Positions 49,952 to 63,285 of a stretch of 64,000 nt of DNA are shown in pieces; positions within the stretch are counted from its first letter, which is position 1, and each line of letters starts with the position of its first letter. Origin of the DNA: Brachybacterium huguangmaarense (GTDB taxonomy: Bacteria > Actinomycetota > Actinomycetes > Actinomycetales > Dermabacteraceae); the NCBI RefSeq assembly GCF_025725725.1, contig NZ_CP107020.1, positions 1,922,001 through 1,986,000 on the forward strand, given 5' to 3'. The notes beneath the pieces are model-generated. The model made no database searches, was not told the DNA's origin, and saw only the letters and a list, made by a program, of their open reading frames with translations. Made by a program: the position numbers and the translations under genes.

Positions 49952-50119
49952 ATGACCATCCACCGCGACACCCTGATGCGCCGCCCCATCCGTGCGGGGC
50001 GACATCTGGCGAGATCCCGCCCCCTGATCCGCGTGCTCTCCTCCGATCGCGGCGACGTGCCCGGCTGGGTGATGATCACGCTCGTGAACAGCACCGAGAG
50101 ACCCGTCTGCGACCAGTGA
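49952..50119 (+). pseudogene. Pilin-like gene of the tad operon, truncated by prophage insertion
   Basis: ATG 49952 has GAAGGAGAA upstream. The 55-residue frame begins with a basic leader (HRDTLMRRPIRAGRHLARSR) and reaches SSDRGDVPGWVMITLV, the conserved start of the small membrane protein that follows tadC in many Micrococcales (RGDVPGWV followed by a hydrophobic helix). Right after VMITLV the hydrophobic helix is missing and the frame ends NSTERPVCDQ. The breakpoint coincides with the start of phage-type genes. I read it as the attL side of a prophage that split the gene. The small-protein family is recalled from knowledge, not searched. Confidence 0.65.
50062..50090. other. Probable prophage left attachment region (attL)
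   Basis: Pilin-like homology stops within the sequence TGGGTGATGATCACGCTCGT (about 50063-50082). The crossover core should be in or next to it. No second copy is in the window, so the exact core is undefined. Confidence 0.45.
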
Positions 50120-50159
50120 CCGCGCGAGAACGTCAGCTGGCGGTGCCAGACTCCCGGCC

Positions 50160-50558
50160 ATGGACGACCCGACCCGCTCCACGCCGTACCCAACGACGAG
50201 CCCGGCAGCGCCGCTTCCCGGATACGAGCGGTTCTTCGCGTTCGAGTCGATGCAGACCACCGTGAGCACCGTGACCATCGGCTACCGGCTCACGCTGCGG
50301 GGCGTGACGCCGATCGAGACGATGCCGAGCACCCGGGACGAGTCCCTGCCCGAGTACTCGATCCGTGTGACCCTCGGTGACCACGAGGTGGTGCTCACGG
50401 TCGACGAGTGGGGCGGCCGCGGCGAGGAGCTGGACACGTGGCTGCGCGACTGGATCGTCGAGCGGGTCAGCTGGACGCGAGCCGGCGTCGCGAGCGGGCG
50501 GTCGCGGAAGGATCCGGGCTGGTTGAGGGTTCTACGGGAGCAAGCGCCCTGGCGGTGA
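50160..50558 (+). CDS. Hypothetical prophage-edge protein (132 aa)
   Basis: The first frame inside the prophage. It has a Pro/Thr-rich N-terminus (TRSTPYPTTSPAAPLPGYERFF), then beta-rich TVSTVTIGYRLTLRGV and SIRVTLGDHEVVLTVDEWGGRGEELDTWLRDWIVERV, and a Trp/Arg-rich end. No signal peptide or known motif is seen. The ATG at 50160 lacks a strong RBS; start is uncertain. Being between attL and the next promoter, it may be a lysogenic-conversion (moron) gene. Function unknown. Confidence 0.55.
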   Translation: MDDPTRSTPYPTTSPAAPLPGYERFFAFESMQTTVSTVTIGYRLTLRGVTPIETMPSTRDESLPEYSIRVTLGDHEVVLTVDEWGGRGEELDTWLRDWIVERVSWTRAGVASGRSRKDPGWLRVLREQAPWR

Positions 50559-50591
50559 CGCGTGCGGCCAAGACTCAATCAGCCCTACCCC

Positions 50592-50620
50592 TTGCGCACC
50601 CTATTTTAGGGTGCTAGTCT
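50592..50620 (+). promoter_or_regulatory. Promoter with a palindromic operator in its spacer
   Basis: TTGCGC at 50592-50597 and TAGTCT at 50615-50620 are 17 bases apart. Between them is a perfect inverted repeat, GCACCCT-ATTTT-AGGGTGC (50596-50614), overlapping the -35 and abutting the -10. A dimer bound there would block RNA polymerase. The obvious candidate repressor is the Aca2-like HTH protein two genes downstream. Confidence 0.7.
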
Positions 50621-50674
50621 TGAGGCACGAGGTCAGGGGAACAGCCCCAGACCAGGACCGACTAGGAGTCGATC

Positions 50675-50881
50675 ATGAACGAGCAGACCTTCACCACCAA
50701 GCAGGACGCGATCGAGCAGCTCATCCTCCCCGCCCTCGAGGTCCCCGGCGTGTCCACCGTCGCCGACTACGACGTCGACGCCATCGCTGACGAGGTCCTC
50801 GGCGACTACGAGCAGGGCTACGCCCAGCAGGTCGACACGGACGCCTTCTGGGAGATCGTCGCCAAGCACGAGAACGCCTGA
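50675..50881 (+). CDS. Small acidic protein, candidate anti-CRISPR (68 aa)
   Basis: A 68-aa acidic protein (FTTKQDAIEQLILPALEV, YDVDAIADEVLGDYEQGY, DTDAFWEIVAKHENA), predicted mostly helical. Similar small proteins occur in actinobacterial phages and plasmids without a known function. It is the first gene after a strong promoter with a palindromic operator and is followed by a hairpin and an Aca2-like regulator, the arrangement of acr-aca operons. The anti-CRISPR role is inference from position only. TAGGAG nine bases upstream supports the ATG at 50675. Confidence 0.7.
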   Translation: MNEQTFTTKQDAIEQLILPALEVPGVSTVADYDVDAIADEVLGDYEQGYAQQVDTDAFWEIVAKHENA

Positions 50882-50892
50882 CCACCCACCAG

Positions 50893-50922
50893 CGCCCCGG
50901 CCCCCATCGCGGAGCCGGGGCG
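50893..50922 (+). terminator. Intercistronic hairpin between the acidic gene and the HTH gene
   Basis: A perfect 9-bp stem (CGCCCCGGC at 50893-50901 with 50914-50922) and a 12-base loop follow the stop at 50881. It may partly terminate transcription so that the regulator is made at a lower level than the first gene. Confidence 0.6.
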
Positions 50923-50943
50923 TCCCTGACCATGGAGGTATCC

Positions 50944-51384
50944 ATGAAGACCACACCCACCCCCGACAGCCGCTCCTCTGCCGAGCAGCACGTCGCCGAG
51001 CCCCGCATGACCGGCGGCGAGCTGATGACCATCCGCGACTGGCTCGGCCTGACCGGCGACGTCCTCGCGAGCATCCTCGGCGTCGACCCCCGTACCGTCC
51101 GCGCCTGGGAGTCCGGCAAGTACCGCATCCCCGACGGCGTCCGCGAGGACATCGAACGGATCGAGGCCGACACCGCAACTGCGGTCGGGGAACTCGTCGA
51201 CGCCCTCAACATCGCGCGAGACCCAGCCGTGGTCGTCTACCGCACCGACGCCGAGCTGCACGATGCCCGCCCCGACACCAGACACCTCACGGCCCGCTGG
51301 TGGCGGCACGTCGTCGCCCGCGCCGCGCAGGAGGTCCCCGGCATCGAGATCGGCACCCGCGCCGAGCTCGACACCACGGCGTGA
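50944..51384 (+). CDS. Aca2-like HTH regulator (DUF1870/YdiL-type)
   Basis: A 146-aa protein. After a 20-residue disordered N-terminus, MTGGELMTIRDWLGLTGDVLASILGVDPRTVRAWESGKYRIPDGVREDI is a lambda-repressor-like HTH with the WESG and P-x-G-V landmarks of the DUF1870/YdiL family; a C-terminal domain has VVVYRTDAEL, RHLTARWWRHVVARAAQ. Aca2, the anti-CRISPR-associated repressor, has this same two-part layout. In acr operons Aca binds the acr promoter and shuts it off after the initial burst. ATG 50944 has GGAGGT upstream; ATG 50932 would overlap that site. Confidence 0.8.
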   Translation: MKTTPTPDSRSSAEQHVAEPRMTGGELMTIRDWLGLTGDVLASILGVDPRTVRAWESGKYRIPDGVREDIERIEADTATAVGELVDALNIARDPAVVVYRTDAELHDARPDTRHLTARWWRHVVARAAQEVPGIEIGTRAELDTTA

Positions 51385-51400
51385 CCCAGAGCCGCTACCG

Positions 51401-51916
51401 ATGACGACCCCCGAGCCGCGCCACGGCTACCTCGACGAGTGGGACGGCCGACTGATCTGCCACGAGTGCGGCCGCGGCTACCTCCACCTCGCGACCCACG
51501 CCCGCGCAGCCCACGACCTCACGGCCGCCGAGTACCGCGAGCGCCACGGCCTCGGCATGTCGACCAGTCTCGTCGCGTCCTCCGTCGCGGCCGACATGCG
51601 GGAGCGTGCCTCCCGCCCCGAGGTGCTCGCCCGACTCGCAACCGTCCGCGACCCCGATGCCCTGGCGGCGCACCGGGGTCGGCAGTCGTGGAGGCCCGAG
51701 GTCGTCCGCAAGGCCGTCGACCGCGGCGCATCCACCCGCGTCCCCGTCCCCGACGCACTGGTCCGAGGGATGCCGCCGTGGGAGGACCTCCTCGCATGGA
51801 CCAGCTCAGCACACGGGATCATCGCCCAGGGCTACGCCGTGCGCGCCCTCGCGGACGCCTGCGGCCGATCCCAGGCCACCGTCGCCCAGCGGCTGCGACG
51901 CCACCCGCGCACCTGA
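51401..51916 (+). CDS. Ros/MucR-like zinc-finger DNA-binding protein
   Basis: A 171-aa protein. Residues 15-55 match the Ros/MucR C2H2-type finger found in actinophages: RLICHECGRGYLHLATHARAAHDLTAAEYRERHGL (Cys-x2-Cys, His-x3/4-His). The middle is charged, and the last 60 residues hold an HTH-like segment (YAVRALADACGRSQATVAQRLRRH). It lies 16 bases after the Aca2-like gene, so it is in the same operon. Possible roles are transcriptional control or DNA recognition. The RBS is not obvious. Confidence 0.72.
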   Translation: MTTPEPRHGYLDEWDGRLICHECGRGYLHLATHARAAHDLTAAEYRERHGLGMSTSLVASSVAADMRERASRPEVLARLATVRDPDALAAHRGRQSWRPEVVRKAVDRGASTRVPVPDALVRGMPPWEDLLAWTSSAHGIIAQGYAVRALADACGRSQATVAQRLRRHPRT

Positions 51917-51956
51917 CGGACTACGCTCAACCCCACCACGACGGGGGAGGCAGCTC

Positions 51957-52670
51957 ATGTGCGGGAGATTCGTGCTCGAGATCGACGAGGCAGGGCTCCT
52001 GCATGCGTACGTCGCCACCAAGGGAGGTGACGGCAGGGACTGGACGCCCACATACTCGATCGCCCCGTCCACCATGGCCCCGGTGATCCGCGAGCACGTC
52101 GACGACGACGGGCAGACCGTCAGGATGGTCGAGCCCGCACGGTGGGGCCTGCAACCGTCATGGGCGAAGGACAAGGGACCGAGGCCGATCAACGCGCGCT
52201 ACGAGGGCGTGACGAGCAACGGCATGTTCCGCAGCGCGTTCGCGTCCCAGAGGGTCGTCGTGCCGATGAGCGGCTACTACGAGTGGGTCGAGACCGAGAC
52301 AGGGAAGCAGCCGTACTACGTGCACCCCCGCGAGGGCGGTCTCCTGCACGCGGCCGGTCTCGCCGCCGCGCGCAGGGAGGGTGAGGGCTGGGCGGTGACG
52401 TTCACGATCATCACCCGGGAGGCGCGCGACGCCGCCGGCCAGGTCCACGACCGGATGCCCGCCTACCTCCCCGACGACTTGCTCGCCGACTGGCTCGCCC
52501 CCGGGAAGCTCGAGCAGGTCGAACGCGAGCACCTGCACTCCGAGCTCGGCGCGGCATCCGAGACGATCGCGCGTGACCTCGTCACCCACCCCGTCGACCG
52601 GAAGGTCAACAGCACGCGGGCCGCGGACCGGTCAGACGCGTCGCTGATTAGGCCGGTCGAGTTCGGGTGA
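51957..52670 (+). CDS. SRAP (YedK/HMCES) family protein, prophage copy
   Basis: A 237-aa SRAP protein: Cys2 (MCGRFVLEIDEAG), Asn in PINARYEGV, Glu in MSGYYEWVET and His in QVHDRMPAYL, the complete crosslinking set. It senses abasic sites in single-stranded DNA and forms a thiazolidine bond to them. It is the last gene of the plus-strand cassette; a GGGGGAGG element sits ten bases before the ATG. It is only moderately similar to the chromosomal SRAP at 42425-43186, so it was acquired separately with the phage. Confidence 0.92.
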   Translation: MCGRFVLEIDEAGLLHAYVATKGGDGRDWTPTYSIAPSTMAPVIREHVDDDGQTVRMVEPARWGLQPSWAKDKGPRPINARYEGVTSNGMFRSAFASQRVVVPMSGYYEWVETETGKQPYYVHPREGGLLHAAGLAAARREGEGWAVTFTIITREARDAAGQVHDRMPAYLPDDLLADWLAPGKLEQVEREHLHSELGAASETIARDLVTHPVDRKVNSTRAADRSDASLIRPVEFG

Positions 52671-52752
52671 TGTTAGTTGCCTGAGCTAGGTGACCGGACT
52701 CCACCTTCCCTGGGGCACCACCCTTTTTTCACGCTAGAGCGACCCCGTGGGA

Positions 52753-53202
52753 TCAACTCTCGGTGATCTCGAATACCAATTCTCCGGCGTGTAGGATGGG
52801 GATTACGAAGGGGTCCCCGAACACGCGCTGAGTCAAATCTGCGACGGCCTGTCGAATGTATGGAAGCAACGCCATGACGGCGACGCGATTCACAAATTCC
52901 TCCGCGGCCCCCTTCGATACTGCAATATTTTCCGTGAAGGTGTAGGTCGCGGAGGCGTCCACGATTACGACGCCTATTCCCATATCCATTCTGGTGCGCA
53001 GTCGGGCACTAAATTCGCGGTCGCTGACTATGTGCTTCAAATAAAACTCTGGCTCTGCATCCGTCGGCAACTCCGACTCGCTTGACCAGTCCTCGTTTAT
53101 CACGGCAGAGAGCTCGTAGAAATTCACTGACTCGAGGTTTGCTCCGGCGTCGAGCATTTGTACTGCCGACTCAAAGTGAATTGTCTTGGCAGGGTCGCTC
53201 AT
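52753..53202 (-). CDS. SecB-like chaperone
   Basis: A 149-aa protein of the SecB fold. The diagnostic C-terminal half is RVAVMALLPYIRQAVADLTQRVFGDPFVIPIL, close to the YPYIREYVYDLTGR region of the SecB-like antitoxin chaperone Rv1957. The beta strands ahead of it (FSARLRTRMDMGIGVVIVDASATYTF) also fit SecB. Actinobacteria usually lack the export SecB, so a solitary SecB-like protein next to an HTH gene suggests a chaperone of a toxin-antitoxin system. The ATG overlaps the HTH stop (53199-53202). Base composition is clearly AT-richer than the neighbours. Confidence 0.8.
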   Translation of the reverse strand: MSDPAKTIHFESAVQMLDAGANLESVNFYELSAVINEDWSSESELPTDAEPEFYLKHIVSDREFSARLRTRMDMGIGVVIVDASATYTFTENIAVSKGAAEEFVNRVAVMALLPYIRQAVADLTQRVFGDPFVIPILHAGELVFEITES

Positions 53203-53810
53203 GCGTGCGCCACCGACTTCTCGACCCACGACTGAGCTTGATACCGCACGCGAAGTGAATTTCTGCGGCCGTGCTCTATGGGAATCACGCGGCCTCGCGT
53301 GGCCCCACGAGACCACCCTTCGTTTCGCTTCGCATAACGCCATCGGGCTAATGCGCCGTTGAGGGCATCCACCATGTCTGCAGGGAGAGGGTGGGGCAAT
53401 TCTTCCGCCAGGCACACACCGTTCTTGCTTGCCCATTCGTACACTTCTACCCAGCGCCAAATCGGCGAGGCCGAGATCCGATCAAAGGGGGCAGGGAAGT
53501 GGTCGCGGCGTTTTCCAGCTGACCAGAGACGTACCGACTCGCGGCTGGCTCCAAGCCTTTCCGCTATGTCGCTCGTGCTAACCAGATCGAGGCCAATGCG
53601 AGCGATGTGCCCGCCGATCGCGTTCACGTCTGCGTTGATTCGAGCCCAGGCGTCAATGGCTGAGCCCGCCTCGATCTCGACTTCAAGTTCGATCGCTCCA
53701 TGGATTGACGCAGGGAGCGCCACGTACGGCAGCTCTTCGAGTGCTTTCATCTGACGCTCGTCGTCCAAGCTGACCCCGTGCAAGATGAGGTTGACTTCGT
53801 ATGCGGTCAT
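53199..53810 (-). CDS. HTH protein, candidate antitoxin of a TAC module
   Basis: A 203-aa protein. Residues 1-85 form a beta/alpha domain (MTAYEVNLILHGVSLDDERQ, ELEVEIEAGSAIDAWARINADV) like the ligand or oligomerisation domains of HicB-type proteins. Residues 90-145 hold an HTH (LVSTSDIAERLGASRESVRLWSAGKR, PIWRWVEVYEWA). The last 60 residues are basic and could be the chaperone-addiction segment that SecB-like proteins recognise. ATG 53810 has GGAGG upstream. A GTTGGC-N4-GCCAAC dyad lies 33 bases upstream of the start, fitting autoregulation. The antitoxin role is inferred from the order of genes. Confidence 0.72.
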   Translation of the reverse strand: MTAYEVNLILHGVSLDDERQMKALEELPYVALPASIHGAIELEVEIEAGSAIDAWARINADVNAIGGHIARIGLDLVSTSDIAERLGASRESVRLWSAGKRRDHFPAPFDRISASPIWRWVEVYEWASKNGVCLAEELPHPLPADMVDALNGALARWRYAKRNEGWSRGATRGRVIPIEHGRRNSLRVRYQAQSWVEKSVAHA

Positions 53811-53842
53811 CGTTGCCTCCACTCTCCGATCTTCGCACACGT

Positions 53843-53858
53843 GTTGGCGCTTGCCAAC
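53843..53858 (-). promoter_or_regulatory. Dyad operator upstream of the HTH-SecB-like pair
   Basis: GTTGGC and GCCAAC form a perfect 6+4+6 inverted repeat in the gap between the small HicA-like gene and the HTH gene. The position suits an autorepressor site. Confidence 0.55.
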
Positions 53859-53865
53859 GTGGGGA

Positions 53866-54108
53866 CTACCACTGAGCTCTGCTGGGCGCGCACCCGTGTG
53901 CGCACTTGCGTGACTGCTTCCAGATGGCGCGCGCGGTGTTCCGGCCGGTGGCGTAGACGGTGATCTTGCAAGGGACCTCATCGTCCGTGCAGTGCAGGAA
54001 CCCGGCTGGGTGCGCACGCGGACCGGCCTCCGAGTAGTTCCATCCGAACTCGCGGCAGAGAACCCTGACGCACTTCTTGGCGTCCGGGTCCTGCGGCAAG
54101 CCCCCCAT
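53866..54108 (-). CDS. Small HicA-like protein, candidate toxin of the TAC module (80 aa)
   Basis: An 80-aa protein: DPDAKKCVRVLCREFGWNY, AHPAGFLHCTDDEVPCKITVYATG and RNTARAIWKQSRKCAHGC. The helix-Gly-Trp, single His-rich strand and C-terminal Arg-Asn-Thr helix recall HicA RNases (GW...GSHH...TL..ILKQ), with His at the place of the catalytic His. Two extra Cys and a His at the end could bind zinc. ATG 54108 has GGAGG seven bases upstream; the longer frame lacks a start site. It is upstream of the HTH and SecB-like genes on the same strand. The toxin role is a hypothesis; similarity is weak. Confidence 0.5.
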   Translation of the reverse strand: MGGLPQDPDAKKCVRVLCREFGWNYSEAGPRAHPAGFLHCTDDEVPCKITVYATGRNTARAIWKQSRKCAHGCAPSRAQW

Positions 54109-54179
54109 GGTCCTCCGATCGCCGATCCGAAGGCAGTGTACGCGATGACCTCGCGTGGGGGAGCGGGGCGCAAATGCAG

Positions 54180-54223
54180 GAAGTGCCCCCACCCAGACCG
54201 TGAGGTCCAGGCGGGGGCACTTC
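54180..54223 (-). terminator. Terminator of the prophage late operon
   Basis: A perfect 11-bp stem (GAAGTGCCCCC at 54180-54190 with 54213-54223) lies two bases past the stop of the zinc-ribbon gene. It closes the leftward tail-lysis operon and insulates the HicA-like gene. Confidence 0.8.
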
Positions 54224-54224
54224 T

Positions 54225-54383
54225 TCATGCGGTGCGTGCGCGGCGGCGGGCGGTCAGCTCGCGGGACTCGTCACTGTCGGAGAGGGCGCACATGTCCCTC
54301 GCGGTGATCGACGACCAGACCGCCCCGCACTCGGGGCACTCGAAGTGGCCGTCGGGCTGGTCCCAGTCAGGCCGGCTCATCAT
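54225..54383 (-). CDS. Small zinc-ribbon protein (52 aa)
   Basis: A 52-aa protein, MMSRPDWDQPDGHFECPECG and onward, with CPEC followed 12 residues later by a lone Cys (RDMCALSDSDES), and a basic tail (RELTARRRARTA). The half zinc ribbon suggests a DNA- or metal-binding role. It overlaps the holin-like gene by 17 bases and is the last gene of the late operon, right before the terminator. Confidence 0.6.
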   Translation of the reverse strand: MMSRPDWDQPDGHFECPECGAVWSSITARDMCALSDSDESRELTARRRARTA

Positions 54384-54750
54384 CGACTGACGCATGGGTC
54401 GCGCGGACGTCCGCGTCGGTCAGCGGGGCCGGTGTGCTCACGGGGTGATCGTCCTTGGGCCGCTCCTCCTGGGCGGGCAGAGCAGCCAGCCACGGCAGGT
54501 AGAGGCGGAGCCACGCGTCGACGACCGGGAGAGCCATGACCCGCTGGATGGCACCGAGCACCAGGAGGGCGGTGCCGACCCAGCCGACGGCGAGCGCGGG
54601 GTCCTCGCCGGCTGCAGCCTGGTAGATCAGCGGTGCCATGCCGGCGAACGCGACGACGGCCCACAGGACGGTGCGGAGGACTGCCCGCCACGGGTGGGCG
54701 ACCTGGGTGGCGACGCCGGTGTCGGCGCGGTGGGTGTGGGCGGTGGTCAT
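54367..54750 (-). CDS. Holin-like protein, two TM helices (127 aa)
   Basis: An N-terminal His/Thr-rich stretch (TTAHTHRADTGVATQV), two TM helices (AVLRTVLWAVVAFAGMAPLIYQ and ALAVGWVGTALLVLGAIQRVMAL) and a soluble Glu/Lys/Asp-rich C-terminus. Class II holins have this topology. It sits in a run of small membrane genes after the endolysin. ATG 54750 overlaps the next gene's stop. Confidence 0.7.
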   Translation of the reverse strand: MTTAHTHRADTGVATQVAHPWRAVLRTVLWAVVAFAGMAPLIYQAAAGEDPALAVGWVGTALLVLGAIQRVMALPVVDAWLRLYLPWLAALPAQEERPKDDHPVSTPAPLTDADVRATHASVDDEPA

Positions 54751-55028
54751 GGTCGTGCCTTTCGGTGATGGGTGAGGGTGATGCCGATGGCGCACCAGGC
54801 GAGCGCCGGCGTGTAGATCAGGACGCGCGGGCCGCGGGGGAGGTCCAGGACGATGCCCTCGGCGAACGCCCACCCGGTGGCGGCGACCATCGCGAGCATC
54901 CCCATCAGCAGGAACCTCGTCTGTGTCGGCTGGGTCTTCCACCAGTCGATGGCGCGGGCCGCCTGGATGAGCACGTAGACGGCCAGCGCGATGTTGAGCA
55001 CACGGATCGCGTCGAACGGGTCGATCAT
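54747..55028 (-). CDS. Holin-like small membrane protein, three TM helices (93 aa)
   Basis: A 93-aa protein: IRVLNIALAVYVLIQAARAI, FLLMGMLAMVAATGWAFAEG and VLIYTPALAWCAIGITLTH, three TM helices, with a basic end (HHRKARP). Class I holin topology. Overlaps both neighbours by four bases. Which of the four membrane proteins is the true holin cannot be decided. Confidence 0.65.
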   Translation of the reverse strand: MIDPFDAIRVLNIALAVYVLIQAARAIDWWKTQPTQTRFLLMGMLAMVAATGWAFAEGIVLDLPRGPRVLIYTPALAWCAIGITLTHHRKARP

Positions 55029-55324
55029 TCGTCCTCCTCGCTGGGCAGGGGCTTGAACGTGGGTCGAGGGGGCGGCGGTGGCGGCTTCTGCTGCCAGATG
55101 TGCGCCTCGAGCAGGTTCACGTGGTCAGACAGGATCTCGAGGTATGCCTCGACGTGCCGTAGTCGACGCTGCTGGGAGTCCCGATCCCTTTTCAGGCGGT
55201 CCAGCTCGCGGGACATGTGCTCCGGCAGAGACGCCGTCCTCCCCGACCGGGCCACGTACACCGATCCGATGAGCCCGATGAACGCAACCACAGCGCCGGG
55301 GCCGATCAGGGACGACCACTCCAT
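55025..55324 (-). CDS. Membrane-anchored coiled-coil lysis-region protein (99 aa)
   Basis: One N-terminal TM helix (LIGPGAVVAFIGLIGSVYVA), then a coiled coil (SRELDRLKRDRDSQQRRLRHVEAYLEILSDHVNLLEAH) and a Pro-rich end (KPPPPPPRPTFKPLPSEEDE). This layout is typical of small proteins next to holins in actinophages (DUF2746-like). It may be a spanin-like or holin-partner protein. Confidence 0.65.
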   Translation of the reverse strand: MEWSSLIGPGAVVAFIGLIGSVYVARSGRTASLPEHMSRELDRLKRDRDSQQRRLRHVEAYLEILSDHVNLLEAHIWQQKPPPPPPRPTFKPLPSEEDE

Positions 55325-55746
55325 CAGTCCTCCTCACGGTGCACGGGCAGGTCGGGCTGGCGGGTGACGGTCCACAGGGCCAGGCCGGTCAGGAGGTAGG
55401 TGCCGGTGGAGATCCAGTCCGACCCGGTACCACTGCCCATCGCCCACGCCCACGCGTACCCGAGGCCCCAGATCACCCACATGCCGCCGACTGCGGCGAT
55501 GGCCCACAGCCACCGGGCGATGATCGCGGACCACACGCACAGGAGGCCCACGAGGATCCATGCGACGCCGAGTAGCGCCTGCGACACGTCGAATGTTTCG
55601 AGAACGCCGCCGCGAGGGTTGGGTCCGTCAGCACCGTGGGCTGCGCCGTACGCCCAGCCCCGCCAGATCGCGCCGATACCGAGCAGCAGCACCATCCAAC
55701 GGCGGGCCGTGCTGGTCCTCCCCCTCGACACTGGTGGTCTCGTCAT
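55324..55746 (-). CDS. Four-TM membrane protein of the lysis region (140 aa)
   Basis: Basic N-terminus (SRGRTSTARRWMVLLLGIGAIW) and about four TM segments ending with IVGLLCVWSAIIARWLWAIAA-like, GGMWVIWGLGYAWAWAM and YLLTGLALWTV. The protein is very Trp-rich. No enzyme motif is seen. The stop shares one base with the next start. Possible holin or superinfection protein. Confidence 0.65.
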   Translation of the reverse strand: MTRPPVSRGRTSTARRWMVLLLGIGAIWRGWAYGAAHGADGPNPRGGVLETFDVSQALLGVAWILVGLLCVWSAIIARWLWAIAAVGGMWVIWGLGYAWAWAMGSGTGSDWISTGTYLLTGLALWTVTRQPDLPVHREED

Positions 55747-55807
55747 GGAGTCACCTCCCCGGGTGTGGCGCGGGGCCGGTGCCGGGCCTCACCGGCCCCG
55801 CGCTCGG

Positions 55808-56905
55808 TCACTGGATTCCCGCGGCGTGCTTGCGGGCCAGGGCGATGCCCCGGTCGGCGGCGGTAAAGCCGGCGTCGAACGTGTTGATGAACCGCTGGAT
55901 GCCGCGGGACAGCTCAGGCCCCCAGATGCCGCGGTCCACGGTCACGCCCACGTACGCCTCGAGGCACCGCACGAGCTTCGACGCGTTCCCCTTGTGGTCG
56001 GGGTCGTGATCCCAGACCTTCGGGACGATCGCGTTGCCGATCTGGGCGGCGGTGCGCACCTGGTCGGAGATCTCGTCATCCACCGGCAGATCGAAGTACG
56101 CGTAGAGCGCGTGGAGGTCGCCGAGCCCGAGACGACCGTCCTGCGGGCGACCTTGCCGGATCTGCACCTTCGTGTGCGTCGCGACGCCGTACCGGCCATC
56201 GACGGCCAGGGGGATCGCGGTGTTGATCTCCTCGACGACCTCGTTGACCTCGGAGCCTACGAGCCGCGCGAACGTCGTCACGCCGGGGAAGCCGTCGACG
56301 ACCAGGCCCTGCGATCGCTGGAAGTCCTTGGTGCGGGCGACGGTCTTGGCGGTGATGTACCGCACCGAGCCCACGCCGAGGGCCTTGTTGATCTGGAGCG
56401 CGTCGTCGGCGGAGATCCCGAAGAACGGCACGTGGAAGCCATCCAGCCGCCACGAGCCGCCGCCGATCATGTAGCCGCGGCGGTTGGAGTAGTAGCCACC
56501 ACCGTCCGCCGTCGAGCCGCCCCGGTTGGAGGTGTTGCCGCCGGCGAGCGCCGGGTTGGACGAGGACACGATGAGCACGCATGCGTCGGTGTGGGCGGTC
56601 GCGCCGTTGTGCAGGACGATCCCGGCAGCGCCGAGCGTCGCCGAGCGGGGCCCGCGGTACCGGCCGACCTCGCGGGAGTAGTTGCGGAGGACGCCGGTCG
56701 AGGCTGTGTCGAGGGTGCCGCCGGCCTGGCCGGTCTCGATCATGCCTGCCGCGTGGGCGTCGACGCACCACGGCTCGGGGCCGCGGCCGCAGCGCTTGGA
56801 GTACCAGTTGCGGTTCGAGCCGGGCGGGACCTCCCACGGCCCCTGCTTGAGCTGGGCACGGTTGAAGTCGAGGTAAAGCGCGCGGCCGTCGGCGTAGGTC
56901 TTCAT
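55808..56905 (-). CDS. Endolysin (CHAP-like amidase/endopeptidase with peptidoglycan-binding domains)
   Basis: A 365-aa protein. The N-terminal 150 residues hold a Cys-His enzyme core: EPWCVDAHAAGMIETGQ near residue 45, IVLHNGATAHTDACVLIV near residue 98. Two peptidoglycan-binding-like repeats follow: FQRSQGLVVDGFPGVTTFARLVG and VDRGIWGPELSRGIQRFINT. It lies between the tail genes and the holin candidates, the normal place for a lysin. No signal peptide is present, so export needs the holin. Confidence 0.82.
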   Translation of the reverse strand: MKTYADGRALYLDFNRAQLKQGPWEVPPGSNRNWYSKRCGRGPEPWCVDAHAAGMIETGQAGGTLDTASTGVLRNYSREVGRYRGPRSATLGAAGIVLHNGATAHTDACVLIVSSSNPALAGGNTSNRGGSTADGGGYYSNRRGYMIGGGSWRLDGFHVPFFGISADDALQINKALGVGSVRYITAKTVARTKDFQRSQGLVVDGFPGVTTFARLVGSEVNEVVEEINTAIPLAVDGRYGVATHTKVQIRQGRPQDGRLGLGDLHALYAYFDLPVDDEISDQVRTAAQIGNAIVPKVWDHDPDHKGNASKLVRCLEAYVGVTVDRGIWGPELSRGIQRFINTFDAGFTAADRGIALARKHAAGIQ

Positions 56906-57072
56906 CAGGCGACCTCCCCGTCGTTGTCGGTGCCGAGGTCGGGGGCCTCGGTCAGGTCGATGTCGTCGTCTCCGACCTCGACCGGGTCGGCGGGGATCTC
57001 GGCCGGGTCGATGTTCAGTTCCTCGGGCGAGAGGTCCGGGTCGACGGGCAGGTCATCGGGATTGGTGGTCAC
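56905..57072 (-). CDS. Small acidic phage protein (55 aa)
   Basis: GTG 57072 is preceded by AGGAGG with a six-base spacing. The product is almost entirely Asp/Glu/Pro (TTNPDDLPVDPDLSPEELNI, VEVGDDDIDLTEAPDLG). It shares one base with the endolysin start. The role is unknown; it may be a linker of the lysin. Confidence 0.6.
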   Translation of the reverse strand: MTTNPDDLPVDPDLSPEELNIDPAEIPADPVEVGDDDIDLTEAPDLGTDNDGEVA

Positions 57073-57096
57073 GGGGTGCCTCCTCAGGGCATGCGA

Positions 57097-57124
57097 AAGG
57101 CCCCGACCGTGTGGGCGGGGCCTT
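57097..57124 (-). terminator. Hairpin between the tail genes and the lysis cassette
   Basis: AAGGCCCCG at 57097-57105 pairs perfectly with CGGGGCCTT at 57116-57124, followed on the minus strand by TTCGC. It could lower read-through into the lysis genes. Confidence 0.7.
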
Positions 57125-57138
57125 GATGGGTGGATGGG

Positions 57139-57456
57139 TCAGGCGGTGGGTGCGGGCGGGTAGAGCGCGTCGGCGACCGTCGTCCATGCCTCGGCGACGA
57201 CGTACGTGATCGCTCCGTCGTCGACGGCGGCGTGCCCGCAGTCGGAGCACGTGGCATCCGCGACCGTGGGGTTTGTCGCGACGTGTGCGAGGAAGTGCGC
57301 GACCACGGACGAGGGGTCGATCAGGGCCTGCGCGGCCAGGCGGCCGGACGGCCCCTCCTCCTGAGCCTTCGCCGAGGCGGCCTGACGGATCGCGGCCTCG
57401 GTGCGGGCCCGCATCGTCGCGTTCTGGGTGGTTCGAGAGACACCGATGAGGGTCAT
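57139..57456 (-). CDS. Hypothetical phage protein (105 aa)
   Basis: An alpha-helical N-terminus (TTQNATMRARTEAAIRQAASAKAQEEG) and a C-terminal domain with CSDCGHAAVDDG, a Cys-x2-Cys pair. It follows the giant tail gene by six bases. No homologue is recognised. It is probably a tail accessory or chaperone gene. Confidence 0.65.
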   Translation of the reverse strand: MTLIGVSRTTQNATMRARTEAAIRQAASAKAQEEGPSGRLAAQALIDPSSVVAHFLAHVATNPTVADATCSDCGHAAVDDGAITYVVAEAWTTVADALYPPAPTA

Positions 57457-57462
57457 GAGAGC

Positions 57463-60400
57463 TCACTTCCTGTAGGTGATGTCGATGGATGCGTTCTGTC
57501 CGCGGACGTAGTGGTCGAGGTTGGTGGAGTCGGTCGACAGCCCGAAGCCTCGGTACGCACCCGAGCGGAAGCCCGCGCACATCGCGGCGTCGGTGATCGT
57601 CACCGAGTACGCGCCACCGGCCCTGACCTTCACTCCCGCGACCACCGTGTTCAGCCCCGCAGCACCGGACGGGAACGAGCTGTTGCCGTGGAGGCGGACC
57701 TCAGCGATACCGCCAGCCGATGCGTAAGTGTGGGAGATCGTGAAGTTCAGGATCACCTTCTCGACCGTGGACCCCGACAGGGCCCCAGTCATGTCCGCGA
57801 ACAGCCACAGGCCCTCACGGTTGCCGTACGAGGAGTACTGCCCCTGCACGGCGTCGCCGCTGGACTTCAGGCCGTTCTGGCCCCGCCGGTACGTGCCGAC
57901 GGCCGTGTGGTCACGGTGGAGCGAGTACCGCTGGATCGTCGCCGGTGGCGGCGTGCTGCCCGACCCGGACCCCACTTCCTTCGCGTCCTGCCACGCGGCA
58001 CCGGTGTACTCGATGGCAAGGCCAAGGTCCTCGACGACGAGCTCCACAGGGCGAGTCCCCTCGGACGACACCTGGTGGTAGTCCTCAGGGCACTCGGTAC
58101 GGATGATGAACGAGTAGCCCTTCGGTGCTGCGAGATCCTGAGTCGTCACGATCCGGGACATCGGCGCGAGACGGTCGATCGCGGAGTTCAGTCCCGAGCA
58201 CTGCGACAGCGTCTGGAACTGGCTCACGTCCGTCACCGGCATCGGAGCCCACTCCAAGTAGCCCCGCACCCACGCCGCCTTCGAATACCCCGCGATGGGG
58301 ATCGGCGACGACGTGACCCGGTACGTGCGACCCGGCTGCAGCGTCACCGGAAGCTCCAGGACACGGGTCCTGGACTTCCTGATCTCCGTCCACGGCAACG
58401 ACCGGTAGCCGCGCCCGATGATGCCCTGGGGCAGCGCCGCCAGACGGTCCTCGAGCGACGTCCCGTCGACCGACAGGGACCGCGCCTCGACGTCCTGGAG
58501 CACGGCGTTGCCGTCACCATCGATGGTGGCCCCACCGATCGTGAGCAGCTGCGTGCCAGAGGGTCCGATGCGGACCATCTCGTACTCCGCGCCGTCAGGG
58601 TCGACGCCCCAGAGGATCAGGCCTTCGGACGTGAGCTCGAGACGCTGGCCCTCGGCGTCGGTGCGGAACTTCCCCGACGTGATCAGCGTGGCCGCGAGCT
58701 CCGCGATCACCGCGGAGTCGATCTGCGCGCCGTTGGTGCGCAGGTTCTGGATGTACGCCTCCTGGATGGAGGCAGTCGCCGCCGCGATCTTCTGCGCCAC
58801 GAGCTCGTTGAGGTCCGCGGCCGTCGCCACGAGCTGGGAGACGTTGATCTTCACGAACGAGCCGACGGCGGCCGCGATGTCCTCGGCGTCGATCTGCCCG
58901 GCGGCGATCTTCTTCGCCGAGAAGATGTTCGCGAACAGCTTGTCGACCACGGCGGTCGCGATGTTCGCGGTCCCGGCGGTGAGCTTGGCGACGTCGAGCG
59001 CCGCGATGACCTCGGAACGGATCAGCACGGGCTTCCACGCCGAGCCGTCCCAGGTCCACTGCCCCTTGACGTTCCGGGTCGCGAGCGCGTCGACCTGCAT
59101 CCACGTGTCGCCGGCCACGACACCCGGCACGGACGCCGATGCCGCCGACGTCGACCAGCGGGTCGCGTTCTTCCCGTTCGCCGACGCCGTGATCTCCGAC
59201 GTGATCTGCCCGCGAGCCGCGGCGAGCGCGTCGGCGGCGTCCTGCTTTGCGGCGTTGGCCTTCGTGGAGGCGTCCTCCGCGGCCCGCTGAGCGATCAGCG
59301 CGTCGGCGGCGTCCGCGGCTGCCCGCGCGGCGTCCACGGCCGCCTGGCGGGCCGCCTCGGCCTTCTGCGTGGCATCGGTGCCGGACGCGGCGATCGCGTC
59401 GGCCTTGGCCTGGTCGGCCTTGGTCTTCGCATCGGCGGCCGCCGCGTTCTTGGCGGCGGTCTCCGCGGCCGCGGCCTTCGCCGTAGCATCCGCAGACGCC
59501 GCAGTGATAGCGGCCTGCTTCGCAGCATCAGCCTTGGTAGTCGCGTCCGCCTTCGCGTCCGCGAGCGCCTGGTCCGCCTTGGCCTTCGCATCCGCGGCAG
59601 CGGCAGCCAGCGCCGCGGCCTTCGCCGCATCTGCCTTGGCCTGGGCGTCCGCGGCCGCCGCGGTGATCGCGGCCTGCTTGGCGGCATCGGCCTTCTGCTG
59701 GGCGTCCGTGGCCGCCGATGCCTTCGCGGCATCGGCCTTCTGCTGGGCATCGGTCGCCGCGGCGGCGAGCGCGTCGGCCTTGGCCTGGGAGGCCTTGGCC
59801 GTGGCGTCCGCCGACGCGGCCGTGGTGGCCGCGGTCTTCGCGGCGTCCGCCATGGCCTGCGCCTGGGCGGGTGTGGCCTTGGAGTCCGCGGTCTGCTGGG
59901 CCTTGGTCGCGTCGGTCTGCGCCTTGCCGGCGGCATCCTGGGCGGCCTTGAGCGCCGGGTACGCGTCCGTGATGTCCACGAGCCGCAGCTCGTCGAGATA
60001 CACCGTCTGGCCGGCGTTGGCGGCCTGGTTGTAGGCCGTCGGCTGCGCGCAGTAGTACCGGAAGCGGACGGTCCCCTCGGGCGCGGTGACCGTCCACGAG
60101 GGCCGCACGAGCTTCCCGTTCGGCACGGTGATCGCCGCCGAAGCCTGCAGGGGGTAGGAGATGCGAGCGTCGGTCTTGTCCCACGCCTCCAGCTGGATCG
60201 TCCACGCCGACCCGGAGTCCGAGAACACCGACGCGGCGAGCATGTAGGTGTGCCCCGGGATCACGTCCACGAACCCGTACGCGCCGAAGTTGTTGCCGTT
60301 GGTGCCGGGAGCGGTGTACCGGATCGCCCAGGCGCCGTCGGTCGCGTGCTCCTGCACGCGCTCGATGCGCCCATTGGACAGCGCCGGCACCGGCCCCTTG

Positions 60401-61305
60401 CCCCGCTCGAAGCTCGGATCATCCCAGACGGTCGGTCCCTTGGCGAGATCCGACTTCATCTGGTCGGCCGTGGCCTGCGCGGTGACCGCGGCATTGAACG
60501 CGTCGCGGGCGTCGAGCACCCCCTTGTCGGCGGTGCGCTGCGCGGCTTCGGCCGTGGACTGCGCGGTCGCCGCGGCCGCCTTCGCAGCGTCCGCGGTGGA
60601 CTGGGCGGTGACGGCCTTCGTGTTCGCGGCCGCGGCAGACTGCGCGGCGGCCTTGATGTCGGAGTCCTCGACCTCGACCCACGCCGACTGGCCCGGCACC
60701 CACACGCGCGTGCTTGCGTCGCTCGGCTTGACCCAGAGGTTCGACGACGAGCGGTCCGCCGCCGGCGGCTCCGTCTCGGAGTAGATCACGCGGCCCTTGG
60801 AGTCCGCGATCCCCGCGGCCTGCAACGCGGCCTGCGACGCCGCCGACGCGGCCTGCACCGCGGCATCCGCGGTCTGCTGCGCCGACACCGCCTGATCCCG
60901 CGCGGCCGCGAGATCACTCACGAGCCCCGACAGGTCACCCGACACGCCACCGAGACCATCGGCGAGCGCCTGGTCGAGCTCGGCGAGGTCATCCTCGAGG
61001 GCGGGCAGGCGCACGTCCCGGAGCTCTGCGACCGCGGTCTCGCCGGCGGCGATCCGCTCGACGGAGGATGCGAGGTCGGTTTCGAGCTGCTCGGCACGCT
61101 CGGTCGTGTCGTCGAGCTCGACGACGAAGTGCCGCACCGACCGCTTCTCGCCCGCCGCGTCGATGAACGTCGAGTCGCCCGTCGGGCCCATGTCCTTCAC
61201 ACCGTGAGGGACGGTGTCGCGCTCACGCACCTGCTCGAGCTGCTTGCGGCGCAGGTCGGCGAGCGCGCGCTCGGGCGAGGGGCGCAGGTTGATGCGCTTC
61301 ACCAT
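57463..61305 (-). CDS. Large minor tail/receptor-binding protein with a long Ala-rich coiled coil
   Basis: A 1280-aa protein. Residues 1-150 open with MVKRINLRPSPERALADLRR and helices; residues about 150-260 have TVDTAKAAA-type repeats; a jelly-roll-like carbohydrate-binding domain is around 300-450 (YTAPGTNGNNFGAYGFVDVIPG, TVRFRYYCAQPT). Residues about 455-690 are an extreme Ala/Lys/Asp repeat (ADAAKAAALAAAAADAKAKA). Then AKLTAGTANIATAVVDKLFA, the phage tail-fibre core, and C-terminal beta domains ending in DHYVRGQNASIDITYRK. It is likely the central fibre or receptor-binding protein. ATG 61305 overlaps the upstream gene by seven bases. Confidence 0.8.
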   Translation of the reverse strand: MVKRINLRPSPERALADLRRKQLEQVRERDTVPHGVKDMGPTGDSTFIDAAGEKRSVRHFVVELDDTTERAEQLETDLASSVERIAAGETAVAELRDVRLPALEDDLAELDQALADGLGGVSGDLSGLVSDLAAARDQAVSAQQTADAAVQAASAASQAALQAAGIADSKGRVIYSETEPPAADRSSSNLWVKPSDASTRVWVPGQSAWVEVEDSDIKAAAQSAAAANTKAVTAQSTADAAKAAAATAQSTAEAAQRTADKGVLDARDAFNAAVTAQATADQMKSDLAKGPTVWDDPSFERGKGPVPALSNGRIERVQEHATDGAWAIRYTAPGTNGNNFGAYGFVDVIPGHTYMLAASVFSDSGSAWTIQLEAWDKTDARISYPLQASAAITVPNGKLVRPSWTVTAPEGTVRFRYYCAQPTAYNQAANAGQTVYLDELRLVDITDAYPALKAAQDAAGKAQTDATKAQQTADSKATPAQAQAMADAAKTAATTAASADATAKASQAKADALAAAATDAQQKADAAKASAATDAQQKADAAKQAAITAAAADAQAKADAAKAAALAAAAADAKAKADQALADAKADATTKADAAKQAAITAASADATAKAAAAETAAKNAAAADAKTKADQAKADAIAASGTDATQKAEAARQAAVDAARAAADAADALIAQRAAEDASTKANAAKQDAADALAAARGQITSEITASANGKNATRWSTSAASASVPGVVAGDTWMQVDALATRNVKGQWTWDGSAWKPVLIRSEVIAALDVAKLTAGTANIATAVVDKLFANIFSAKKIAAGQIDAEDIAAAVGSFVKINVSQLVATAADLNELVAQKIAAATASIQEAYIQNLRTNGAQIDSAVIAELAATLITSGKFRTDAEGQRLELTSEGLILWGVDPDGAEYEMVRIGPSGTQLLTIGGATIDGDGNAVLQDVEARSLSVDGTSLEDRLAALPQGIIGRGYRSLPWTEIRKSRTRVLELPVTLQPGRTYRVTSSPIPIAGYSKAAWVRGYLEWAPMPVTDVSQFQTLSQCSGLNSAIDRLAPMSRIVTTQDLAAPKGYSFIIRTECPEDYHQVSSEGTRPVELVVEDLGLAIEYTGAAWQDAKEVGSGSGSTPPPATIQRYSLHRDHTAVGTYRRGQNGLKSSGDAVQGQYSSYGNREGLWLFADMTGALSGSTVEKVILNFTISHTYASAGGIAEVRLHGNSSFPSGAAGLNTVVAGVKVRAGGAYSVTITDAAMCAGFRSGAYRGFGLSTDSTNLDHYVRGQNASIDITYRK

Positions 61306-62447
61306 GTGAGCTCCTCTCCGAGCTGGTCCTCCTGGCATTCGACCGTGACCGTGCTGTTCGTGAGGTCGTACTTCGCGGAGATGATGCGGAGGGTGTAGGT
61401 CCCGTCGGGGATGTTGAGCCAGCCGGTGAGGGTGGCCTCGACGGCGTCTCCGACGTTCCAAGATCCGATCGGGGACTCGGCGGTGGACTCGACGGTGAAC
61501 GTGACCTGGTCGATGCCCTGGGATGCGAGGGTCGAGGTGGCCTTGGAGCGGAGCAGGTCGAGGTTCTCCGTGTCGGTGTCGCTGATCGTGGTCTCGAGCA
61601 GCGGCATGTACTCGGGGATCGTCTTGGCCTCGGCGATCTGCAGGGCGATGCCAGCTCCCTCACCGGCGCCCGTGGCGTACACGCGGTGCGCGAGGCGGGT
61701 GGCGTTCGAGGTGACCTCGACGTTGGCGATGGGGGACTGCTGGGCGGTGGAGTCCCAGAGCACCTGGGCGGTCTGAGGGATGGTTGGTTGGCCCTCGGTG
61801 CCGGTGCAGAGCACCCACTCGAAGCGGGTGCGGTTGGAGCCTGCGACGAAGCGGGGGCGGAGCATGACGTCGGGGCCGCCGATGACCTCGGTGATCTCGG
61901 TGATCCGTTTCCACGCGAGGTTGTTCGCGACGTTCCATCCCTCGTAGGTGCGCTGACGGACGGCGGGCTCCTCCGGCGGGATCACGATCGGCAGCCAGCC
62001 GGCGCGCTTCGACGTGGCGGCCGTGATGATCCGTCCGACGATCGAGCCGAGGGACACGCCCGACCAGTCGAGGACGGAGAGCTTGAGCGCCTCCTCCTGC
62101 CCGGGACGGAAGTCGCCTGCGAGGACCTCGCGATGCGAGAGCAGGGCACCGATGCCACCGGCCGAGATCTCGAGCTTCCCGGTCTTCGGAGTGTCCTTGA
62201 CGGGCTTGTCGATCGGGCCGGCCGCGATCAGGGTCTCTTCGATGTACTCGTCCTCGTAGGACACCAGGAGAGCGCCCGCCCAAGGCGACCACCAGGAGCG
62301 CTCCACGCCGACGAGCTCGGACCGGTTGCAGGTGGCCGACATCGACTCGATGTCGTTGAGTGGGATCTCGGTGCTGCCGGTGCTGTGCGCGATCGAAGGG
62401 CCGACGATCCCGGTCATGGTCTGGCCGAGGTAGACGCGCCAGGTCAC
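61299..62447 (-). CDS. Minor tail protein (382 aa)
   Basis: A 382-aa protein with VTWRVYLGQTMTGIVGPSIA, WSPWAGALLVSYEDEYIEETLIAAGPI and RTYEGWNVANNLAWKRITEI, typical of the second tail gene after Dit in actinobacterial siphophages (tail-associated, structural or gp27-like hub). GTG 62447 overlaps the preceding stop (GTGA). It has WNVGDAVEATLTGWLNIPDGTYTLRII near the C-terminus. Confidence 0.78.
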   Translation of the reverse strand: MTWRVYLGQTMTGIVGPSIAHSTGSTEIPLNDIESMSATCNRSELVGVERSWWSPWAGALLVSYEDEYIEETLIAAGPIDKPVKDTPKTGKLEISAGGIGALLSHREVLAGDFRPGQEEALKLSVLDWSGVSLGSIVGRIITAATSKRAGWLPIVIPPEEPAVRQRTYEGWNVANNLAWKRITEITEVIGGPDVMLRPRFVAGSNRTRFEWVLCTGTEGQPTIPQTAQVLWDSTAQQSPIANVEVTSNATRLAHRVYATGAGEGAGIALQIAEAKTIPEYMPLLETTISDTDTENLDLLRSKATSTLASQGIDQVTFTVESTAESPIGSWNVGDAVEATLTGWLNIPDGTYTLRIISAKYDLTNSTVTVECQEDQLGEELTW

Positions 62448-63274
62448 CAGATCATCCCGATGTCGACGACCTCGAAGCGGTTGCCCGGGCGCTTCTCCGT
62501 GCCACCGCCGACGTGGATGATGGGCTTGCCACCGTTGACCGCGACGCGCCGCTTCACGCTGATCGTGTGCGTCCCCTCGAGCACCCACTCCGACGCGGTG
62601 TACGTCTTCGTGTCGCCGATCGTGTCGACCACCATCTCCGGAGCGAAGAACAGCGTGGAGTCCAGCCAGATCTCCCACACGAACGACGACTTCGCGTCGG
62701 AGGCCGCTGTCTGGGACAGCCGGAAGTCGAGCAGCCTGTCCGTGGGGAGGCTGATGTTCCCGGAGTACACGACCTGAGCGGTCGTGCTCGAGGAGAGCAC
62801 ACCCCGGTAGGCCGTGGAGTCGACCCAGCGGAGCAGGCGACCCATGGACGCGCCGAACAGCATCGCGTAGCCCCGGTCCAGGACAGAAGCGGGAGCGCCT
62901 GTCGTCGCCGTGATGCCCGCCGGGACCGTGCGCTTGCCGATCAGCGCCGACCCCGCTGGGACCGACGCGCCGATCCGGACCGCACCATCGACCCCGACGT
63001 ACAGGAAATCGGTGCGCGAGCCCGTCGCGGGCGCGGGGTTGGTCGGCACGGTCGTCGCGTCGACGGGCACCAGCACGGCCCGCGCGTCACCCGTCGGGAT
63101 GTAGACGACCCCGGCGGCGACGGCCCACTTCATCGACGACGTGCCGGTGACCTCACAGCCACGCACGATCAACGGAGCCTGCGCCCGGTACAGAGACCAG
63201 ATCACACGCTGCAGGCCCTCCGGGGTGGTGCCATCGCCCTCGGCGTCCGGGGCCAGACCGAACGGGTAGCCCAT
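62444..63274 (-). CDS. Tail protein (276 aa)
   Basis: A 276-aa protein: PFGLAPDAEGDGTTPEGLQRVIWSLYRAQAPLIVRG, WAVAAGVVYIPTGDARAVLVPV, and a beta-rich C-terminus with KRRVAVNGGKPIIHVGGG. The N-terminal half resembles minor tail proteins with a triplet of beta sandwiches. It overlaps the next gene by four bases. No enzyme signature. Confidence 0.75.
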   Translation of the reverse strand: MGYPFGLAPDAEGDGTTPEGLQRVIWSLYRAQAPLIVRGCEVTGTSSMKWAVAAGVVYIPTGDARAVLVPVDATTVPTNPAPATGSRTDFLYVGVDGAVRIGASVPAGSALIGKRTVPAGITATTGAPASVLDRGYAMLFGASMGRLLRWVDSTAYRGVLSSSTTAQVVYSGNISLPTDRLLDFRLSQTAASDAKSSFVWEIWLDSTLFFAPEMVVDTIGDTKTYTASEWVLEGTHTISVKRRVAVNGGKPIIHVGGGTEKRPGNRFEVVDIGMIW

Positions 63275-63285
63275 CGGGGGCCTCC

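Follow-up and report, generated by a model that had tools for sequence, protein, structure and literature searches.

A prophage operon of anti-CRISPR-type layout with an Aca2-like regulator and a conserved leader RNA in Brachybacterium huguangmaarense

In the acrIF8–aca2 operon of Pectobacterium phage ZF40, a small anti-CRISPR gene (acr; CRISPR, clustered regularly interspaced short palindromic repeats) is followed by the gene of the anti-CRISPR-associated (Aca) protein Aca2. Birkholz et al., in Nature in 2024, reportedly found that Aca2 represses translation via leader stem-loops. A complex of Aca2 with RNA has been reported (PMC11239489), and Shehreen et al. (2022; PMC9410906) describe inverted repeats in the core promoters of acr–aca operons and Aca2-like genes that mostly stand without a known acr (35/1223 with one). 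Here we analyze a 64,000-nt stretch of Brachybacterium huguangmaarense (contig NZ_CP107020.1, positions 1,922,001 to 1,986,000; hereafter the window), in which a prophage carries an operon with a palindromic promoter, a two-hairpin leader, a gene for a 68-residue acidic protein and a gene for an Aca2-like helix-turn-helix (HTH) protein. The initial annotation had read operator-promoter, 68-residue gene and Aca2-like gene as the layout of an anti-CRISPR locus, and our analysis supports both layout and interpretation. We establish the anatomy of the operon, the assignment of its regulator as Aca2-like, the conservation of operator and leader together with covariation in the leader, the exchange of the first gene among relatives, and the self-targeting of the prophage by its host. 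With a probability of roughly 0.6, this is an acr–aca type operon, in which the 68-residue protein would inhibit the type I-E system of the host and the Aca2-like protein would act as repressor on the promoter palindrome and the leader hairpins. CRISPR evasion by the 68-residue gene is probable.

Organization of the operon and its Aca2-like regulator

The operon is composed of the following features.

50592..50620, + strand: promoter with -35 element TTGCGC (50592–50597), 17-bp spacer and -10 element TAGTCT (50615–50620); comparable promoters lie upstream of the leaders aligned from relatives
50596..50614: palindromic operator GCACCCTATTTTAGGGTGC within the spacer, predicted binding site of the Aca2-like protein; symmetry kept, letters different in relatives
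50631..50653, + strand: predicted leader stem-loop SL1 (23 nt), GGTC-A-GGGG-AACAG-CCCC-A-GACC, with covariation
50659..50671, + strand: predicted leader stem-loop SL2, CGACT-AGG-AGTCG, around the Shine-Dalgarno (SD) sequence, from stem comparison across leaders
50675..50881, + strand: 68-residue acidic protein, candidate type I-E anti-CRISPR with a DAIADEVL...FWEIV domain
50893..50922, + strand: intergenic hairpin with perfect 9-bp arms (50893–50901 and 50914–50922) and no T-run downstream
50944..51384, + strand: Aca2-like HTH regulator of 146 residues, with an alternative upstream ATG at 50932

The promoter with its perfect palindrome, the small acidic first gene and the 9-bp hairpin between the two genes had been noted in the initial annotation and are all confirmed; the two leader stem-loops are absent from that description. 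The palindrome can be read equally as 7+5+7 or 8+3+8, and shares the last two bases of the -35 element. The 68-residue protein has an isoelectric point of 4.05 and a charge of about -13. The intergenic hairpin is not a standard terminator, since no T-run follows. The HTH open reading frame (ORF) spans 50932–51384, with the ATG at 50944 as the likelier start (SD GGAGGT just 5'; the database copy P0016 has 146 residues).

The HTH protein exceeds the curated cut-off of PF08965 (Aca2_YdiL), the check by hidden Markov model that the initial annotation had proposed, with 32.3 bits versus 23.8 (32.4 from the shorter start). Its four best sequence matches in the PDB are Aca2, and it has the layout of Aca2, with an N-terminal HTH, a long backbone helix and C-terminal dimerization elements (a1–a4, b1, a5, a6, b2). 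The profile match to YdiL (PDB 1S4K) is far weaker (E 0.012 versus 1e-9 for Aca2), and SO3848 (PDB 2OX6) is not among the sequence-profile matches at E ≤ 1. In fold comparison Aca2, YdiL and SO3848 are tied within about 1 Z. The grouping with Aca2 rather than with non-Aca YdiL proteins is thus favored by the sequence profile, whereas the fold does not separate them. In addition, the palindrome overlaps the core promoter of the operon, as at known Aca2 operons. From sequence comparison, the HTH protein likely represses the operon at two levels, via this palindrome in the DNA and via the hairpins in the leader of the mRNA that encodes it.

Conservation of promoter and leader, and exchange of the first gene

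We drew Aca2-like relatives from genomes (22 loci), viral contigs (25 loci) and related genomes. The leader AGGGGANCAGCCCC lies upstream in many of them; promoter, leader and Aca2-like gene recur, and the first gene changes, as in acr–aca operons. The exact 23-mer of the leader occurs in 12 viral stretches, 11 of which have an Aca2-like gene on the same strand 258–1256 bp downstream; the twelfth ends 110 bases past the motif, and another piece of its contig has an Aca2-like gene. A looser 16-mer is found in 65 stretches. Among the 32 that score at least 30 bits by the leader model, 26 have an Aca2-like gene within 3 kb, three end early and three are without one, versus 0/33 with the gene below 30 bits. 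Twenty-one of the 32 are on contigs used to build the model; the other 11, with two near-identical pairs, comprise seven with the gene, one that ends early and three without. When 396 genomes of the phylum are searched, the model matches four at E ≤ 0.001, namely the host (G000), G364 and G478, each with an Aca2-like gene near the leader, and G445, without one. In the host genome, the operon leader is the only significant match.

As a constant marker of an Aca2-like gene, SL1 has exceptions: in L129, L116, L143 and G445 (L151), the hairpin scores 30 bits or more and the gene is absent in the examined stretch. In L100 and L110, a weaker leader-like hairpin and a promoter palindrome are followed further on by a small HTH gene that is not Aca2-like; in L100, a 132-residue gene comes after the hairpin and the HTH gene encodes 68 residues. 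Mycobacterium phage Cracklewink has three weak leader-like hairpins (13–19 bits; L022:1047, 1788 and 3500), each after TCTAGTGAGCTATA and one of them beyond the Aca2-like gene, which possibly make up a multi-gene regulon. At L090:2339-2366 on the - strand, a second SL1-like hairpin, whose outer stem differs (AGCCC/GGGCT), lies ahead of another gene start of the L090 operon, and no promoter is seen 5' of it.

The operator letters vary in relatives (GCACCCTA, GCTTCCTA, ACCTCCTA and TACCCCACG), and symmetry and position are kept in most. Perfect palindrome arms of at least six bases are present in 37 of 45 unique leader promoters (own and relatives) versus 4.1% of shuffles, indicating that the arms are beyond chance. 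For SL1, 94.7% of cells are paired over 28 leaders (19 distinct). Its covariation score is 0.188 versus 0.086 in shuffles, with 0/500 shuffles as high, and slid controls reach at most 0.065. The inner GGGG/CCCC is invariant and the outer stem covaries. For SL2, the best stem encloses the SD sequence in 36 of 39 unique leaders; at least four Watson-Crick pairs are formed in 33/39 versus 23% of shuffled segments, in a test rougher than that of SL1 (simple shuffles; the common CCGG stem is self-complementary), and the 39 leaders contain 19 different stem sequences. An Rfam search of the operon gave one match, far below the gathering score and on the opposite strand, and SL1 is in no Rfam family.

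The cargo, encoded between the leader and the Aca2-like gene, was obtained from 26 of 27 loci and amounts to 29 proteins of 50–185 residues, unrelated in sequence, in 10 similarity clusters, the largest of which (14) is chained via two-domain proteins. Cargo genes were called by a rule on G+C at third codon positions (GC3), and at least one call (L090) looks mis-framed. Here, the cargo is a small protein on a mobile element, encoded directly upstream of an aca-type gene. It is matched by PHROG 27679 (function unknown) with E 3.7e-6, and its fold is predicted with a confidence (pLDDT) of 82. A fold search of BFVD gave, as its six best matches (E ≤ 1.4e-3), phage proteins without a name that look like family relatives; three of the six have 30–39% identity. 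The domain consensus is DYDxDAIADEVLGDY...FWEIVAKH, with 15 close database members counting the 68-residue protein; a small-protein scan of viral sequences gave three loci only. The two nearest relatives each appear to be paired with an Aca2-like protein, as judged from the matching lengths of their contigs (37,020 and 10,777), and a 60-residue weak member of the domain (26% identity) is, by spacing, the sole cargo in G364 and in the viral stretch L133.

Self-targeting by the host and competing explanations

The initial annotation had called for a check of the host genus for CRISPR–Cas with spacers to this phage, and the host itself has such a system. It has a complete type I-E locus (cas3-cse1-cse2-cas7-cas5-cas6-cas1-cas2; 128 repeats), in which none of the eight cas ORFs is interrupted and all exceed their family cut-offs. 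The array has 127 spacers (126 in some tests, with one 50-nt spacer omitted), five of which match the prophage with 0–5 mismatches. Spacer 15 matches 33/33, with GAA on the side of the protospacer-adjacent motif (PAM), as expected for the PAM. Over 104 kb from the window start, the mismatches are 0 for spacer 15, 1 for spacer 86, 2 for spacer 16, 4 for spacer 12, 5 for spacer 83 and 6 for spacer 89. The six targets are all within the prophage, and matches with 7–8 mismatches are found elsewhere too; shuffled spacers never give fewer than nine mismatches in the window. Three of the targets are located as follows.

54902..54934, - strand: target of host spacer 86, 1 mismatch of 33
55603..55635, + strand: target of host spacer 12, 4 mismatches of 33
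60499..60531, + strand: target of host spacer 83, 5 mismatches of 33

Self-targeting recurs among carriers. On the stretch or contig with leader and Aca2-like gene, perfect matches to the own array (32/32) are found in five of six testable type I-E carriers (G000, G364, G590, G587 and G586), and none in G591 (17 spacers, 27.5-kb contig). Two carriers were dropped before this count: G044, which gave no leader match and whose array lies within the stretch, and G190, whose examined pieces contain no array. When seven arrays are paired with other elements (42 foreign pairings), two weak matches result. Of 34 matches, 22 have AA as their PAM (background 1–3%), as does the single G586 match. To obtain controls, we looked for the terminase family in 20 type I-E relatives; four were positive, and after exclusion of G100 (a fragment) four prophage stretches of 40–60 kb from three genomes were used. 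The leader core is absent in all four, and the leader search covered part of the 20 source genomes. Perfect self-targets are present in 5/6 carriers versus 0/4 controls (Fisher p 0.048), and self-targets with up to two mismatches in 5/6 versus 2/4 (p 0.5). Self-targeting therefore supports the acr–aca reading but is not unique to this layout, because two of the four control prophages have imperfect self-targets (1–2 mismatches). Of these two, the one in G049 (around C1:990000) carries a distant Aca2-like gene of its own.

Cse1 is present in 8 of 16 tested Aca2-like carriers; among 148 relatives, a set with G000 and G044 in it, 29 score above the cut-off (Fisher p 0.011, without correction for kinship). 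Genomes and loci with weak or partial Aca2-like matches (G045, G049, G147, L042, L047 and L049–L057) were left out of the count, and the eight carriers without Cse1 were judged for type I-E only. The text of Yin et al. (2019; PMC6739104) gives CRISPR absence as common at acr–aca loci (520 genomes, 47.2%).

In a G049 prophage, which is also present as a 43-kb IMG/VR contig, the endolysin and holin genes are followed by an operon (L205:9501-13017; also L225) for a 102-residue protein, a distant Aca2-like protein, a 175-residue protein and a 760-residue protein in which Cse1 is joined to a C-terminal HTH. The Aca2-like gene has E 1.8e-14 with the profile built here and is below Pfam's own cut-off. 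The opposite flank has chromosomal genes, FUR and ZnuA among them, and no other cas genes, and the leader model has no match at this operon. A subunit of type I-E Cascade encoded on a phage downstream of an Aca2-like gene is in keeping with an anti-type I-E role of this regulator group, and one may guess that it serves as a Cascade decoy. In Dermabacter (G044; L037:5836-6381), a lone Aca2-like gene, 60% identical and without leader match, overlaps a thymidylate-kinase-like gene; the CRISPR array of this host is about 1 kb away, and the Aca2-like gene is a candidate anti-anti-CRISPR.

If the acr–aca reading is correct, the promoter would be unrepressed on phage entry and give a burst of inhibitor, which might bind Cascade or Cas3, possibly by mimicking DNA through its acidity. 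The accumulating repressor would then shut off transcription at the palindrome and also translation at SL1/SL2, with the ribosome-binding site within a stem-loop. In the lysogen, low-level expression would keep the self-targeting array harmless.

Several observations weigh against this reading. The 68-residue protein has no match in PADLOC, Pfam or NCBIfam, its matches among PDB sequences include no Acr, and a fold search of its model against the PDB gave no match (best E 1.1). No known acr was recognized beside the operon in PADLOC-DB, Pfam, NCBIfam or PDB sequences. The domain is found without an Aca2-like gene in the examined flanks of G010, phages Boilgate and Journey13 and other contigs; G010 has a small gene 60% identical and type I-E, but the 60 kb examined contain neither an Aca2-like gene nor a self-target. 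Distant domain relatives occur in six genomes of the same genus without Cas1 or Cse1. Only half of the tested carriers have Cse1, G118 combines a weak leader match, a small gene and an Aca2-like gene with no Cse1, and imperfect self-targeting is seen in control prophages. As to the leader, three pairs of SL1 are changed on both sides, a number reached by 34/500 shuffles, and by folding energy the single leader does not stand out (z -0.81), so that the case for structure rests on comparison; RNA binding by the Aca2-like protein is likewise argued from comparison alone.

The alternative that survives best is that the switch is truly of Aca2 type, the cargo counters other defenses or has another early phage function, and another prophage gene evades CRISPR. 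The diversity of the cargo, the carriers without Cse1 and the weak leader-like hairpins ahead of several genes in Cracklewink are in its favor. We consider it unlikely, however, as the self-targeted G000 and G364 share a small, weakly alike domain as sole cargo between leader and Aca2-like gene, and in another prophage a distant Aca2-like gene stands two genes ahead of a lone Cse1 gene. Less probable still is that the host CRISPR is silent or the targets are escape variants, and that the operon belongs to the ordinary autoregulated, YdiL-like gene pairs of phages. Several spacers are mismatched, and the fold does not set Aca2 apart from YdiL and SO3848; but the cas ORFs are intact, spacer 15 matches perfectly beside GAA, and perfect self-targets recur in G364, G590, G587 and G586. 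A type II toxin–antitoxin pair with the first gene as toxin and the HTH protein as antitoxin, suggested by a small gene next to an HTH gene, the promoter palindrome and resemblance of the HTH protein to MqsA and HigA, is very improbable, as the 68-residue protein is strongly acidic and without toxin family match and is swapped for unrelated proteins in relatives, unlike a fixed toxin partner.

The acr–aca reading can be extended to the phylum. We are evenly divided on whether palindrome, two-hairpin leader and dual DNA- and RNA-binding Aca2-like repressor constitute a phylum-wide cassette, carried by phages and elements of Actinobacteria, with exchangeable inhibitors of type I-E Cascade, in which the DAIADEVL-domain proteins (68 residues; 60 in G364) would be a new actinobacterial AcrIE family and the leader a bait for anti-defense genes.

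Genomic setting and comparison with known systems

The operon sits at the left end of a 48.6-kb prophage in the 3.26-Mb host genome. The surrounding features are as follows.

50076..64000, strand not assigned: left part of the prophage, which continues beyond the window to about C1:2020719 (48.6 kb in total)
49952–50119 and L035 around 14719: parts of an flp-type pilin gene in a tad pilus locus, apparently split by the prophage (by eye)
51401..51916, + strand: ROS/MucR-type regulator of 171 residues, next gene in the same direction (PF05443, E 3.9e-10)
51957..52670, + strand: SRAP (HMCES/YedK-type) protein gene, following in the same direction (PF02586, E 7.6e-56)

The 8-bp common core TCACGCTC is present at window position 50076 and at C1:2020719, 48.6 kb apart, with the ends placed by eye. 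The prophage genes include an integrase, presumably of serine type from an invertase match, a terminase, a portal and a tape-measure protein. The start of the pilin gene is to the left of the prophage and the remainder after the integrase (by eye); therefore, integration may disable the pilus. The ROS/MucR-type and SRAP genes may be cotranscribed with the operon, and the phage SRAP gene may have a further anti-defense or repair function.

As the promoter and leader layout recurs with exchangeable first genes, it could be used as bait for new CRISPR blockers. A conserved leader RNA linked to Aca2-like genes offers a searchable flag for anti-defense genes of Actinomycetota, independent of protein homology; if the phylum-wide reading is true, it would find such genes even where their proteins share no homology, and a new actinobacterial AcrIE family would be added. 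Control of anti-CRISPRs by an HTH repressor through both DNA and mRNA is a recent idea, which can now be tested in distant relatives, and the natural self-targeting hosts are ready test systems.

Among literature titles and abstract openings, we found no description of this leader or of an actinobacterial aca2-type operon. In the main text of Shehreen et al. (2022; PMC9410906), the words actinobacteria and Streptomyces occur 0 times; leader RNA is not mentioned in the available passages. AcaFinder (PMC9765179) describes four actinobacterial Aca families, all reported to be colocalized with AcrIC5; Aca genes in Actinobacteria are common to both, but the present operon is in a type I-E host and has an Aca2-like regulator. 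Putative acr–aca loci backed by self-targeting spacers are listed by Yin et al. (2019; PMC6739104), 15 of them in Actinobacteria, together with 15 putative type I-E loci spread over five classes other than Gammaproteobacteria. The two-sided reasoning is the same as ours, leader RNA is not mentioned in the available text, and overlap with the present operon is possible.

The present operon has the gene order of acrIF8–aca2 of ZF40 in common, as well as the family and fold of Aca2. An inverted repeat in the core promoter of the ZF40 type (PMC9410906) is also present, a likeness of placement. In contrast to ZF40, with its type I-F host, the operon is in an actinobacterial type I-E host and its first gene is unrelated. 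It further differs in its leader, where SL1, unmatched in Rfam, is built around a fixed GGGG-ANCAG-CCCC core.
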